A DNA stretch of 62,784 nucleotides, from assembly GCA_944325065.1 (NCBI GenBank), contig CALUYS010000010.1, forward strand, positions 1 to 62,784. The letters are read 5' to 3'. Origin of the DNA: Candidatus Gastranaerophilales bacterium. Lineage in GTDB: Bacteria; Cyanobacteriota; Vampirovibrionia; Gastranaerophilales; Gastranaerophilaceae. Made by a program: the position numbers and the translations under genes. Positions 2,646-34,551 of this stretch are shown one piece after another; the stretch's first letter is position 1; every line of letters starts with the position of its first letter. The notes beneath the pieces are model-generated. The model saw nothing but the letters and a program-made list of their open reading frames with translations. It ran no database searches and was not told the DNA's origin.

Positions 2646-5066
2646 ATGAATAAGCAAAACGAAGTAAATGCATATTTTCATACACATTGGGATAGAGAAT
2701 GGTATATGGAATATGAACGATATCGTTTGCGTTTGATTGAAGTTTTTGATAATGTTCTTATTGCTTTAAAAAATAATAAACTTGATTGGTTTTGGTTTGA
2801 CGGACAAGTTGCTGCTATTTTGGATTATTTAGAGATAAAAAAAGAAAAAAAAGATGAAATAAAAAACTTTATAAAGAAAAAACGACTTTTTATAGGTCCC
2901 TATTATGTTTCATCTGATAGTTTTTTGGTTTCTTGTGAGTTTTATTTGCGAAATATTGAATATGGCATTAAAAAATCTTTAAAATTAGGTTGCGATGATT
3001 TTGTTTTTTATATAGCAGATTCATTCGGTCATAGTAAATTTTTACCTTTTATTGCAAAATATTTTAATATAGACTATGCAATTTTGTGGCGAGGAATTGA
3101 TCCAGATGTTAACTCTTTTTTCAATTGGGACGGATTAATTACACACAATTTAAAACGAGGGTATTTCCAAAACCAATTATTGTTAAATATTGATAATAAT
3201 GAAAAAACTAAACTTATTCTCAACGAATTAAAAAAAATAGATGACAACAAAAATGACTTCCCAATCATTTTACCTCTTGGTGGGGATCATTTAAATATTC
3301 CAGATAATATAGAAAATACATTAAATGATATTAATAAAAATTTGAAGGAATATAAAATAACTACAAAAAAGACTATTATAGATATATTTAAAAACCTAGA
3401 TTATAAAAAATTAAAAATATATAACAATAAAGAATTTCGCAACAATCAATCGACTTTTATTTTAGATGGTGTTCTGTCAACTCGAAACGACATAAAAAAA
3501 GAAAATGCCAAAACTCAGTTTTTATTATCAGGTATTGCTGAACCATTTATTGCTTTTTTGAATATGTTAAATATAACAAATAACACTTATGAGCAAGAAT
3601 TTGAATATGCAACTTATGAAACACTAAAAAATCACGCTCACGATAGTTTATATGGTTGTAATATTGATAATGTTAATCAAGAAATAAAATTACGATATAA
3701 AAAAGTACAAACTATTTCAAAAAGTATAATTAATCGTCAAATAACAACACTTGAAGAAAATGGAGATAACATTACTGTTTTTAATTTTGGTCGGTATAAT
3801 TTTTCAGGAGTTATTAAACTTAAAACTGACAAAAAGATAAAAAATTTGTATATAGAAAAAAAAGAAAAAGGTTTTGCATTAAATAAATTATATAACCCAA
3901 ATGATATACCTATGACTGAAGATTATAAATCTATTTATACATATTTAATTCCTGTTAAAAATATAAAACCATTTTCAGTAACTTTATTATCAAAAAATGA
4001 TATTATATACTATAATGATTTGTATTGCAATCAAAATAGTATCGAAAATGAATTTATAAAAATAGAAATTGATGAAAATAACAAAATAAATATAATTGAT
4101 AAATCTAAAAAGAAAAGATATGACAATGCATTTATTATTAAAGATGTTGGTGATATAGGTGATAGTTATAATTTTGGACCGTTAAAAAATGATAAATGTA
4201 TTTTTGGAGAAATAAAAAAATATAAAATAATAAAAGAAAAAGGATTGTTTTGCAAATTGAAAACCGTATTTAGCATAAAAATTCCCAAAAATACAAGCGA
4301 AAAAGGACGAACAAAAGGATTTTATGACACAAAAATAAATGTAGATTTTATATTGGAAAGCGAGTCAAAAACTTTAAAAATTAGAATGGATTTTGTTAAT
4401 AAATCAAAAAATCATAAACTGCAAATTGGCATTCAAAAAGAAAACAACACACAAAACGAAATATATTGCGAAGATTTGCTTGGTATAGTAAAACGAAAAG
4501 TTGATTTAAACTATAACATATATGACAAAATCCCCTCACCAAAAGGAATTGAGTTGAAAACAAACACAATACCTTTCAATAGGTTTTTACACTATAACAA
4601 TATTGGCATTATTACAAAAGGAATACATAGTGCCGAATTAAATAAAGAAGGTTTATTCTTGGATATTATAAGGTCGACTGGTGTTATATCCAACCCTAAA
4701 AATCCAAGTCGAGGAACAAGTGCTGGTCCACCTTTGGATGCTTTTAAAAGTTTTATGCTTGATAAGATAATAAAAACACAATTTGGTATTTGTTTTGATG
4801 AAAATCCAAATAGTATGTATAAATATACAAACGAATATTATAACCCGACTTTATGTTGTTTTTCAAATATAAAATCACAAGAATTGTTTAACCTTACAAA
4901 TGAGAATATTCAACTTTTAAATATAAAATCTAAAGAAAATAAAATAAATGTAAGATTATTTAACTCAAGTTGCGAGGAACAAGAAACAATCTTAAATTAT
5001 AAAAATGTTAAAAATAGAATAATAGTATTCAAACCGCATGAAGTCAAAATAATAGTTATGGTATAA
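2646..5066 (+). CDS. GH38 family alpha-mannosidase-like glycoside hydrolase
   Basis: Family 38 glycoside hydrolases cleave alpha-mannosides with a zinc ion bound near the nucleophile. The N-terminus shows the family signature HTHWDREWY (residues 12-20). ADSFGHS (about 124-130) supplies the expected nucleophile Asp125 and a zinc ligand. HAHDSLYGCNID (about 328-339) belongs to the central alpha-mannosidase domain, and the rest is the beta-rich C-terminal domain. At 806 aa the length is normal. There is no signal peptide, so it is probably cytoplasmic; bacterial relatives include mannosylglycerate hydrolases (MngB), but the substrate cannot be read here. The ATG at 2646 has AGAGG upstream. The gene is followed after 27 bp by the MgtC-like gene on the same strand. 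Confidence 0.9.
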   Translation: MNKQNEVNAYFHTHWDREWYMEYERYRLRLIEVFDNVLIALKNNKLDWFWFDGQVAAILDYLEIKKEKKDEIKNFIKKKRLFIGPYYVSSDSFLVSCEFYLRNIEYGIKKSLKLGCDDFVFYIADSFGHSKFLPFIAKYFNIDYAILWRGIDPDVNSFFNWDGLITHNLKRGYFQNQLLLNIDNNEKTKLILNELKKIDDNKNDFPIILPLGGDHLNIPDNIENTLNDINKNLKEYKITTKKTIIDIFKNLDYKKLKIYNNKEFRNNQSTFILDGVLSTRNDIKKENAKTQFLLSGIAEPFIAFLNMLNITNNTYEQEFEYATYETLKNHAHDSLYGCNIDNVNQEIKLRYKKVQTISKSIINRQITTLEENGDNITVFNFGRYNFSGVIKLKTDKKIKNLYIEKKEKGFALNKLYNPNDIPMTEDYKSIYTYLIPVKNIKPFSVTLLSKNDIIYYNDLYCNQNSIENEFIKIEIDENNKINIIDKSKKKRYDNAFIIKDVGDIGDSYNFGPLKNDKCIFGEIKKYKIIKEKGLFCKLKTVFSIKIPKNTSEKGRTKGFYDTKINVDFILESESKTLKIRMDFVNKSKNHKLQIGIQKENNTQNEIYCEDLLGIVKRKVDLNYNIYDKIPSPKGIELKTNTIPFNRFLHYNNIGIITKGIHSAELNKEGLFLDIIRSTGVISNPKNPSRGTSAGPPLDAFKSFMLDKIIKTQFGICFDENPNSMYKYTNEYYNPTLCCFSNIKSQELFNLTNENIQLLNIKSKENKINVRLFNSSCEEQETILNYKNVKNRIIVFKPHEVKIIVMV

Positions 5067-27431: not shown

Positions 27432-27905
27432 ATGAAGAAAATAATATCATTATTATTAACCTTAATATTTGTATTTAGTTTGTTTATTTTGGATAAACCA
27501 GTTGAAGCAGCGAAAAAAAAATCAAAAAAAATTACTAAAGGTATGACATCTGAGGAATTTGAAAAAATCAACCAAACAATAGACTATTTGACAAAAAAAG
27601 TTTATGCAAAATCTTTATTTTCACCACAAGAAAATGAAGAAATGATAGGAATAAAAATAAAACTTGATAATGAACTTTTGATCACACAAGAACCGAGTTT
27701 ATCACAATTGTATTATAAAGTAGGTAATTTATATAAATTACGTGGTTTAAAATCTCAAGCTATTGATTGCTATCAAGTTATTCTTGAGAATTTTATTGAT
27801 ACACCTTTTGCAATAAAATCGCAACGTGAACTTGATAATATGGGTGTGAAAATTCAACTACCCTCTGAAAATGTTACAAATGAAGAGAATGAGGAAGAAG
27901 AATAA
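27432..27905 (+). CDS. Exported TPR-like lysine-rich protein
   Basis: A signal peptide is cleaved after about residue 26 (DKPVEAA). A basic stretch KKKSKKITKG follows, then helical repeats with one TPR-like unit (QLYYKVGNLYKLRGLKSQAIDCYQ, positions about 95-118) and an acidic tail of Glu and Asn. It precedes the prepilin-S74 gene by 56 bp on the same strand, so the two may be co-transcribed. Function unknown. Confidence 0.7.
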   Translation: MKKIISLLLTLIFVFSLFILDKPVEAAKKKSKKITKGMTSEEFEKINQTIDYLTKKVYAKSLFSPQENEEMIGIKIKLDNELLITQEPSLSQLYYKVGNLYKLRGLKSQAIDCYQVILENFIDTPFAIKSQRELDNMGVKIQLPSENVTNEENEEEE

Positions 27906-27961: not shown

Positions 27962-29272
27962 ATGAAAAGAATAATATTAAAAAATTATAATGCTTTTTCT
28001 TTAGCTGAAGTTATGATTGCTTTGGTTATAGTTGCTATATTAATGGCAGCATCTGCTCCTTTAGTTAATAGAAGAGCTAGCCTTGATAATAATTTTCAAT
28101 GCTTCTGGCATAGCGTTGATAATGGTATTTATTATGGCAAAACAGGTGCACAACAAGTTGGTATTGGCATTGAATTGCCTAATGAATATGGGGCATTATT
28201 CTTAAATACAAAAGATGATAAACCTCAAATTACATTTTACTCAAATGGAACAAAAACAGGTATTTTGGGTATAACTAATGCTATAACTATTGGGAATGTT
28301 ACTGGAGCTGTTGGTGATAATTCTGTGGTTATAGGAAATATTGTTGATTCTATTGGTGAAAACACTTTTATATTAGGTAATAGTGCCAGTACTCCATTAT
28401 TATTCGGACAATTTGATGAAACTAATTTAACTTCACAAATATTGAAAGTCAATGGGAAATTACAGGTTGGATATAATAATAGCGGTATAACTGATAGTCC
28501 TTATTCTTTGTATGTCGATAATGGTGGGATATTTAGTGATGGAAATATTACTGGTGGAACAATATATGGAAATAGCTTAAACATTAAAAATGGAGATACT
28601 TCAACGATAACCTTAAGTAATAATGGGAATATCACAGGAACTGGGTTAACTATAAGCGGTAATATTACTGGTGGAACAATTTCAGGAACTGAACTAAATG
28701 TAGGCACAGGTAATATTACTGGTGGAACAATAAGCGGAACTTATTTAAGTATAGATGGAAATATTTCTGGGACTAACTTGAAAATTAGTGAAACTATTGA
28801 TGCCACAGATTTAGGAGAGAGTTTAACACAAGTTATTAATCGTATGATTACTAGTCAAGCATCTGATGAAAAACTAAAAAACGATATTACTGATACTCAT
28901 TTAGGGCTTGATATTGTTCGTAAAATAGAAGTTAAACAATACAAATTTAAAGATCCTGACAAATATGGTGGTGGATTACGATATGGTGTCATTGCTCAAG
29001 AAATACAAAAAATATTGCCAAATGTTGTTAATCAAAATAATGAAGGGTTCCTCACAATCCGAACTAATGACATTTTCTTTATTGCAATAAATGCAATTAA
29101 AGAACTTGATATGGAATTACAAAGCTTAAAACAATTAATTGAAAATAAAAATACAGATAAACTTAAAACAGAAAATAGTGAACTTAAAAACGAGATAAAC
29201 CTTTTAAAAGAACAAAACCAAAAACTTGAAAAACGACTTTTAAAAATTGAAAAACAATTGAAATTAGATTGA
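27962..29272 (+). CDS. Type IV prepilin-like protein fused to a peptidase S74 chaperone domain
   Basis: The N-terminus is a class III signal: NAFSLAEVMIALV with cleavage expected before Phe, Glu at +5 and a hydrophobic helix to about residue 34. The -1 residue is Ala rather than Gly. The middle (about 60-290) has repeats of the type GNITGGTISG, as in trimeric beta-helical fibres. Near 300 starts the S74 intramolecular chaperone domain known from phage tail spikes, with SDEKLKNDI holding the Ser and Lys of its autocleavage site, then KYGGGLRYGVIAQEIQKILP. The last 50 residues are a coiled coil. This predicts a pilin-anchored trimeric fibre that releases its own chaperone after folding. GAGG lies 11 bp before the ATG. 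Confidence 0.85.
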   Translation: MKRIILKNYNAFSLAEVMIALVIVAILMAASAPLVNRRASLDNNFQCFWHSVDNGIYYGKTGAQQVGIGIELPNEYGALFLNTKDDKPQITFYSNGTKTGILGITNAITIGNVTGAVGDNSVVIGNIVDSIGENTFILGNSASTPLLFGQFDETNLTSQILKVNGKLQVGYNNSGITDSPYSLYVDNGGIFSDGNITGGTIYGNSLNIKNGDTSTITLSNNGNITGTGLTISGNITGGTISGTELNVGTGNITGGTISGTYLSIDGNISGTNLKISETIDATDLGESLTQVINRMITSQASDEKLKNDITDTHLGLDIVRKIEVKQYKFKDPDKYGGGLRYGVIAQEIQKILPNVVNQNNEGFLTIRTNDIFFIAINAIKELDMELQSLKQLIENKNTDKLKTENSELKNEINLLKEQNQKLEKRLLKIEKQLKLD

Positions 29273-34234: not shown

Positions 34235-34514
34235 GCAACCCATATGCAGTAGTGAACAATTATCACTTAACGCAACATTGACCGGCAACCGTCTGTTTGA
34301 ACATAAAGTCCAAGTTAAGACCGCTCAAGTTGAGTTTAGTGAGAATATGAACGCCAAGTGGGTTGCGGTTTTTGTGCAACTTTTTACAACAAAGCGGATT
34401 TACAGACGGGCAAAGTCCTAGGGAACGCAAAACCGGAGCCAACAGCCCGAAGGGCGACAGGCAAAGTGTTTTGAGCGTAAAGTAAATTCCAGACAGTTGC
34501 CCCGTCCGGAGGAC
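34235..34514 (+). repeat. 280-bp GC-richer interspersed repeat, copy 1
   Basis: This stretch runs from GCAACCCATATGCA to GTCCGGAGGAC. The reverse complement of 52737-53016 aligns along its whole length (shared blocks include AAAGCGGATTT, ACCGGAGCC, GGGCGACAGGC, CAGTTGCCC). Here it lies opposite to the flanking mot genes. It is visibly richer in G and C than its surroundings and its six frames do not give a recognisable protein. No terminal inverted repeat is evident. Confidence 0.85.
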
Positions 34515-34551
34515 ATTATATTTAATTTTATTTAAATTTTTATTTTTCATT

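Follow-up and report, generated by a model that had tools for sequence, protein, structure and literature searches.

The DNA analysed here, a stretch of 62,784 nucleotides hereafter called the window (contig C10), comes from a metagenome-assembled genome (MAG) of a Candidatus Gastranaerophilales bacterium and carries, at positions 27,962–29,272, a gene that joins a type IV prepilin signal to a C-terminal S74 domain in one chain. We propose, with a probability of roughly 0.55, that its product acts as a modular type IV prepilin whose chains assemble, as a homotrimer, into a self-maturing adhesive surface fibre presented by the type IV pilus machinery. The arrangement recurs across the order Gastranaerophilales, where the residues predicted to carry out self-cleavage are invariant in the proteins sampled and the fibre between the two constant ends is variable.

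Domain architecture of the S74 prepilin

The gene is a single open reading frame (ORF) whose GC content per codon position (0.40/0.34/0.15) is consistent with true coding. Its product matched Pfam N_methyl at residues 7–31 with 28.0 bits (curated cut-off, 21.2) and Peptidase_S74 at residues 301–356 with 53.5 bits (cut-off, 22), and a match to NCBIfam IV_pilin_GFxxxE (TIGR02532) was also above cut-off. The class III prepilin signal and the S74 domain with its SDEKLK site, both first proposed from the letters of the sequence alone, were thus borne out, the S74 assignment by a strong Pfam match. Because a genome of the same genus (G150) keeps the single reading frame, the fusion is real and neither a chance product nor an assembly artefact. 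The features of the gene, all on the + strand, are as follows.

27,962–29,272, +: S74 prepilin gene, 436 amino acids plus stop, ATG start; ORF with Pfam matches, kept in G150 at the same locus
27,962–27,994, +: predicted leader peptide, residues 1–11, Ala at −1; N_methyl match at residues 7–31, cut after A11 placed by the class III consensus
27,995–28,084, +: pilin-type hydrophobic helix, residues 12–41, Glu at +5 (E16); AlphaFold helix 14–42, 93% identity to G150 over 30 amino acids
28,085–28,411, +: N-terminal fibre part, residues 42–150; AlphaFold model, weak structure matches to hexapeptide beta-helices
28,541–28,771, +: five GNI[TS]G fibre repeats, residues 194–270; motif count against shuffles
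28,862–28,879, +: predicted autocleavage site A300/S301 with the S301/K306 dyad (SDEKLK); alignment to 3gud, whose first residue is this Ser; invariant in 137 in-order S74 proteins
28,862–29,134, +: S74 intramolecular chaperone/autocleavage (ICA) domain, residues 301–391; Pfam match and structure matches
29,063–29,269, +: C-terminal long helix, predicted trimeric coiled coil, residues 368–436; AlphaFold models and MyRF analogy

The class III signal reads MKRIILKNYNA/FSLAEVMIALVIVAILMAASAPLVNRR; position −1 is occupied by Ala instead of Gly, and mature position +5 by the Glu of the motif FSLAE. The GNITGG-type repeats claimed for the fibre were also confirmed, since the five GNI[TS]G motifs in residues 194–270 compare with a maximum of two in 10,000 shuffles of the region. 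For residues 88–150 the model gives a beta-helix whose IGN repeats recall those of YadA heads; Pfam YadA_head had no match in the window protein, nor did the YadA-type C-terminal beta-barrel anchor, and the chain ends in a helix. S301 and K306 have the same five-residue spacing as S587/K592 of MyRF and S911/K916 of endoNF, for which this Ser-Lys pair has been shown to be catalytic, and in MyRF a coiled coil equivalent to the C-terminal helix drives trimerisation (PMC8326128).

Structure models

An AlphaFold model of the full chain as a monomer resolved the pilin helix, the short beta-helix-like part and the S74 domain. When residues 283–436 were modelled alone, the mean confidence score (predicted local distance difference test, pLDDT) was 84.9, and the fold matched known ICA domains, namely MyRF ICA (7dc3; Z 8.3, root-mean-square deviation 3.7 over 110 residues), the K1F chaperone (3gw6; Z 7.1), the GA-1 neck appendage chaperone (3gud; Z 6.4) and the T5 tail fibre (4uw8; Z 5.5). 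These entries ranked 1, 2, 3 and 6 in the structure search, and the intervening ones matched the long helix only. A sequence profile built from 36 sequences recovered MyRF at 1.4e-10, together with phage tail fibres. The S74 domain had been introduced as a phage tail-spike domain, but it is not confined to phages, as Bdellovibrio MAT fibres and animal MYRF also carry it.

Distribution and conservation across the order

S74 domains, in one to twelve copies per genome, were found in 151 of the order's 286 sampled genomes, but in few genomes elsewhere in the phylum sample, 12 of whose 107 positive genomes lay outside the order. In total, 138 distinct S74 proteins were read, 137 of them from the order. 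The two features nearly always stand together on one chain, the class III signal being present in 112 of the 116 S74 proteins with readable N-termini; one of the four counted as signal-less (L111, the same protein as L202) does carry the signal when read from another start codon. In the genome-contig sample, which overlaps the order-wide sample so that the counts are not independent, the signal occurred in 65 S74 proteins, and one protein had neither signal nor truncation. Among viral S74 proteins, 86 had readable N-termini and none of these carried the signal; nor was it seen on S74 proteins with readable N-termini from the phylum outside the order, where several were truncated; two sister-order matches were cut at contig ends.

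Both residues of the dyad were kept in the homologues, S301, D302 and K306 being invariant in 137/137 in-order proteins, although this is an upper estimate because the sample was gathered with S74 profiles, which favour canonical motifs. Only three other columns among 120 were fully invariant, and the median pairwise identity of the 137 proteins was 45%. At motif position +3, an Arg thought to stabilise the oxyanion was present in 134/137 proteins; it was replaced by Lys in the window protein and in G150 and by Leu in one other protein. Arg at this position is not an absolute criterion of the S74/ICA family.

Fibre variability and triplet loci

The alignment of 36 comprised the window protein and 35 relatives, and Pfam recognised S74 in 36 of them, N_methyl in 35 and YadA_head in 14 (best 9.4e-38). 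Paralogue pairs from the same genome were 80%–100% identical in the pilin helix and 80%–99% in the first 80 S74 residues, but only 37%–68% in the fibre, which differed in both length and sequence. Between the window protein and its G150 counterpart, identity was 93% in the pilin helix, 59% in the first 80 S74 residues and 37% in the fibre. Judged from these alignments, constant ends flanking a variable middle are the pattern that receptor-binding modules would be expected to show.

Two other families of the order, f6 and f7 (genomes G006, G007, G012, G013 and G016), have three consecutive, different S74 prepilins, and four of the five loci then carried a fourth pilin or pilin-like ORF, this one without S74. 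The three S74 prepilins span the following positions.

L073, 5515–10322: three S74 prepilins
L074, 4722–9630: three S74 prepilins
L075, 5740–11605: three S74 prepilins
L076, 5619–11487: three S74 prepilins
L077, 5264–8609: three S74 prepilins

Three S74 genes also stand in tandem in genus g20, and genus g7 has two plus one, in separate clades. By their gene order, the triplet loci resemble minor-pilin operons, and heterotrimers are a possibility.

Genomic context and pilus machinery

The window's genome (G000) is a MAG bin of 1.86 Mb in 37 contigs, rated 98.4% complete, and contains one S74 gene. On one side, the neighbours of this gene are miaA, a BioD-like gene and a gene for a small exported TPR-like protein, and on the other a sigma factor gene and flagellar genes; it sits among ribosomal, miaA and flagellar genes, with no prophage context. 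The upstream order is conserved in G150 (secY, rplO, rpsE, a membrane protein gene, miaA, the BioD-like gene, the TPR-like gene and the S74 pilin gene).

Elsewhere, the genome encodes much of a type IV pilus system, with seven N_methyl matches, five T2SSE matches (one being an MshEN-bearing extension ATPase), a secretin, and a platform protein that adjoins the T2SSE ATPases/secretin and was assigned by position and sequence. For prepilin peptidase, whose lack the sequence-only reading had named as refuting, neither Pfam domain gave a match in this MAG, although the enzyme is present in 35 of the 39 genomes searched, including G150. There, the peptidase gene sits between gpmI and a sigma factor gene, and a joint query of the three against the window's genome returned no gpmI, no peptidase and no close sigma-factor match. 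Because three adjacent genes are missing together, one of them a gene of glycolysis, the missing peptidase is probably an assembly gap, and its true loss from this genome is the less likely explanation.

The genome also encodes very large prepilins without S74, with open frames of ca. 620–720 amino acids (L044, L046, G000:C1:132950 and C1:277974). Two of these, when translated, start with GFTF[IV]EVILVM.

Proposed mechanism and alternative explanations

As the sequence-only reading had suggested, a trimeric fibre that matures itself and is anchored by a pilin helix stays the best reading and is partly supported: the domains, the dyad, its conservation and the machinery except the peptidase were observed, and from there we infer trimerisation, cleavage and display. 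Directed by the observed class III signal, the chain would enter the inner membrane and leave its body in the periplasm, a topology taken from established pilin knowledge. The S74 domain, with its observed fold similarity, and the coiled coil would then join three chains and template the beta-fibre; a homotrimer is assumed because the genome has one S74 gene only. Correct folding would allow the conserved S301–K306 dyad to cut at the predicted site between A300 and S301, which would release a part of ca. 16 kDa and leave an anchored fibre chain of ca. 30 kDa with a new end exposed. A prepilin peptidase would take off residues 1–11, and the pilus platform would receive the three helices, so that the fibre could be shown as an adhesin at the tip of a pilus or pseudopilus through the secretin. 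More speculatively, shedding of the bulky S74 part might in addition be what permits the fibre to pass the secretin.

Several observations weigh against this proposal. The fibre was not confidently resolved in the AlphaFold monomer, although low confidence for the GNI[TS]G repeats in a monomer model is as expected of an intertwined trimer. Three identical helices have no obvious fit in the helical body of a pilus. In addition, no pilin globular domain is recognisable, the fibre beginning almost directly after the helix, pilus genes do not adjoin the S74 gene in the window's genome, and no prepilin peptidase was found in a MAG rated nearly complete; the upper-estimate nature of the dyad invariance also counts here. 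The lack of a globular domain and of nearby pilus genes, and a peptidase not found in this MAG, would suit a membrane-anchored trimer that never enters a pilus, its helix being an inner-membrane anchor and its cleavage serving folding or a MYRF-like release of a periplasmic fragment; MYRF itself is a precedent for an ICA domain working in a membrane-bound protein (PMC8326128, PMC3742443). We consider this possible but unlikely, because the full class III consensus including Glu at +5 in 112/116 proteins is hard to explain for a mere anchor. Families f6 and f7, in which most runs of three S74 prepilins continue into a fourth pilin, also argue against it, and so do the variability of the fibres and the YadA-head repeats, which point to exposure at the surface. 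Cleavage, for its part, might be slow or lost in this genus, as Lys stands in place of Arg at motif position +3 only in the window protein and G150, with Leu in one other of the 137, and a trimeric pilin fibre could then keep S74 as a permanent folding cap. The dyad Ser and Lys are intact in both proteins, however, and Lys could replace Arg, making a loss of cleavage rather improbable.

A heterotrimer with one copy of each of three S74 pilins per fibre or tip could be the ancestral state, and the single gene of the window's genome a reduced, homotrimeric version. The consecutive, distinct S74 prepilins in the five triplet genomes fit such a history, particularly in G006, where the fibre lengths are close (235/249/246), as do the exactly three copies, in separate clades, in many g7 genomes. 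We nevertheless regard it as improbable: the S74 trimers known so far are homotrimers, fibre lengths are unequal in other triplets (335/355/398 and 518/526/700), genomes with 1, 2, 4, 11 or 12 copies exist too, and the clade tree rests on few columns. A phage or prophage tail fibre gene with a spurious pilin-like N-terminus is extremely improbable. The best PHROG matches of the window protein are indeed tail fibre proteins, but the housekeeping neighbourhood is conserved in G150, the genome has a single S74 gene, and none of the 86 viral S74 proteins carries the signal. Prophage origin was accordingly rejected on two grounds: the neighbouring ribosomal, miaA and flagellar genes, some of which G150 shares, and the comparison with viral contigs. 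A chance fusion of two genes was likewise rejected, as the fusion is conserved in G150 and order-wide.

Returning to the pilus-displayed fibre, a wider and much more tentative extension would be an order-wide family of pilus tip spikes, in which a constant helix and S74 domain frame an interchangeable adhesive fibre, trimer-dependent self-cleavage licenses pilus loading and secretin passage, and triplet lineages build heterotrimeric spikes.

Comparison with known systems

The design was at first thought to be undescribed. It is in fact an already catalogued modular pilin architecture (IPR012902-IPR030392; PMC8179133): N_methyl with S74 is among the 15 commonest modular pilin architectures of Raynaud et al. 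(2021), who read S74 as a peptidase (PMC8179133). The window protein resembles these large pilins in its prepilin signal, S74 domain and grafted functional module. Whereas the architecture was catalogued there without study, S74 is interpreted here as a folding, self-cutting device, and the account covers fibres, operons and distribution within a single order. This was the only paper found to join S74 with modular pilins; a literature search that covered few subscription papers returned no functional or lineage study and none joining S74 with N_methyl by name or with Gastranaerophilales. The fusion is thus known as a catalogue entry, and what is new here is its distribution, the invariance of the dyad, the YadA heads, the variable fibres and the triplet loci.

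Among characterised proteins, the Bdellovibrio MAT fibres are alike in being bacterial surface fibres that end in S74, with an SDxxxK motif and variable adhesive parts (Caulton et al. 2024, PMC10769870), and self-cleavage has been shown for one bacterial S74 fibre, Bd3182 (PMC10769870). In the MAT superfamily, a conserved beta-rich domain of ca. 130 amino acids directly follows the signal peptide (PMC10769870), whereas the window protein has a class III prepilin signal and pilin helix at its N-terminus. The minor pilins CofB and TcpB, proposed to form homotrimers at the pilus tip (PMC7248040), would be functional analogues as trimeric tip pilins; neither S74 nor self-cleavage is described for them in the literature consulted. 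YadA-type trimeric autotransporters share the proposed trimeric design, as well as the YadA-head repeats found in 14/36 aligned proteins, but the window protein has an N-terminal pilin-helix anchor, and the YadA beta-barrel anchor was not seen. MYRF is a cellular membrane-anchored ICA protein with the same Ser-Lys spacing and the closest solved fold (PMC8326128, PMC3742443). It releases a transcription factor, whereas the fibre of the window protein would stay anchored while the chaperone leaves.

If the proposal holds, it would provide a route for building a long intertwined trimeric adhesin, which is hard to thread or refold, on a pilin anchor and exporting it by the type IV pilus. The S74 pilin architecture should then no longer be read as a peptidase pilin, and the uncultured gut Gastranaerophilales would have a candidate family of adhesins whose binding modules are exchangeable. 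The triplet operons additionally raise the question of S74-built heterotrimers.

Neighbouring gene and intergenic sequences

The gene preceding the S74 prepilin might encode a partner of it, although this is a guess.

27,432–27,905, +: 157-amino-acid exported protein with weak TPR similarity; ends 56 bases before the S74 gene, same gene in the same place in G150

Its TPR matches were below the Pfam cut-off. A promoter and terminator scan showed no clear excess over chance. A 23-bp intergenic sequence with a small palindrome, AATGTCCTCCGGACGGGGCAACT, occurs at positions 34,495–34,517 (− strand) of the window and at positions 2402–2424 and 3274–3296 of the G150 locus L033. It is identical in both genomes of the genus, its chance expectation in the window is zero, and it is absent from the other fetched loci. 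In G150, the two copies lie directly downstream of the S74 pilin gene.
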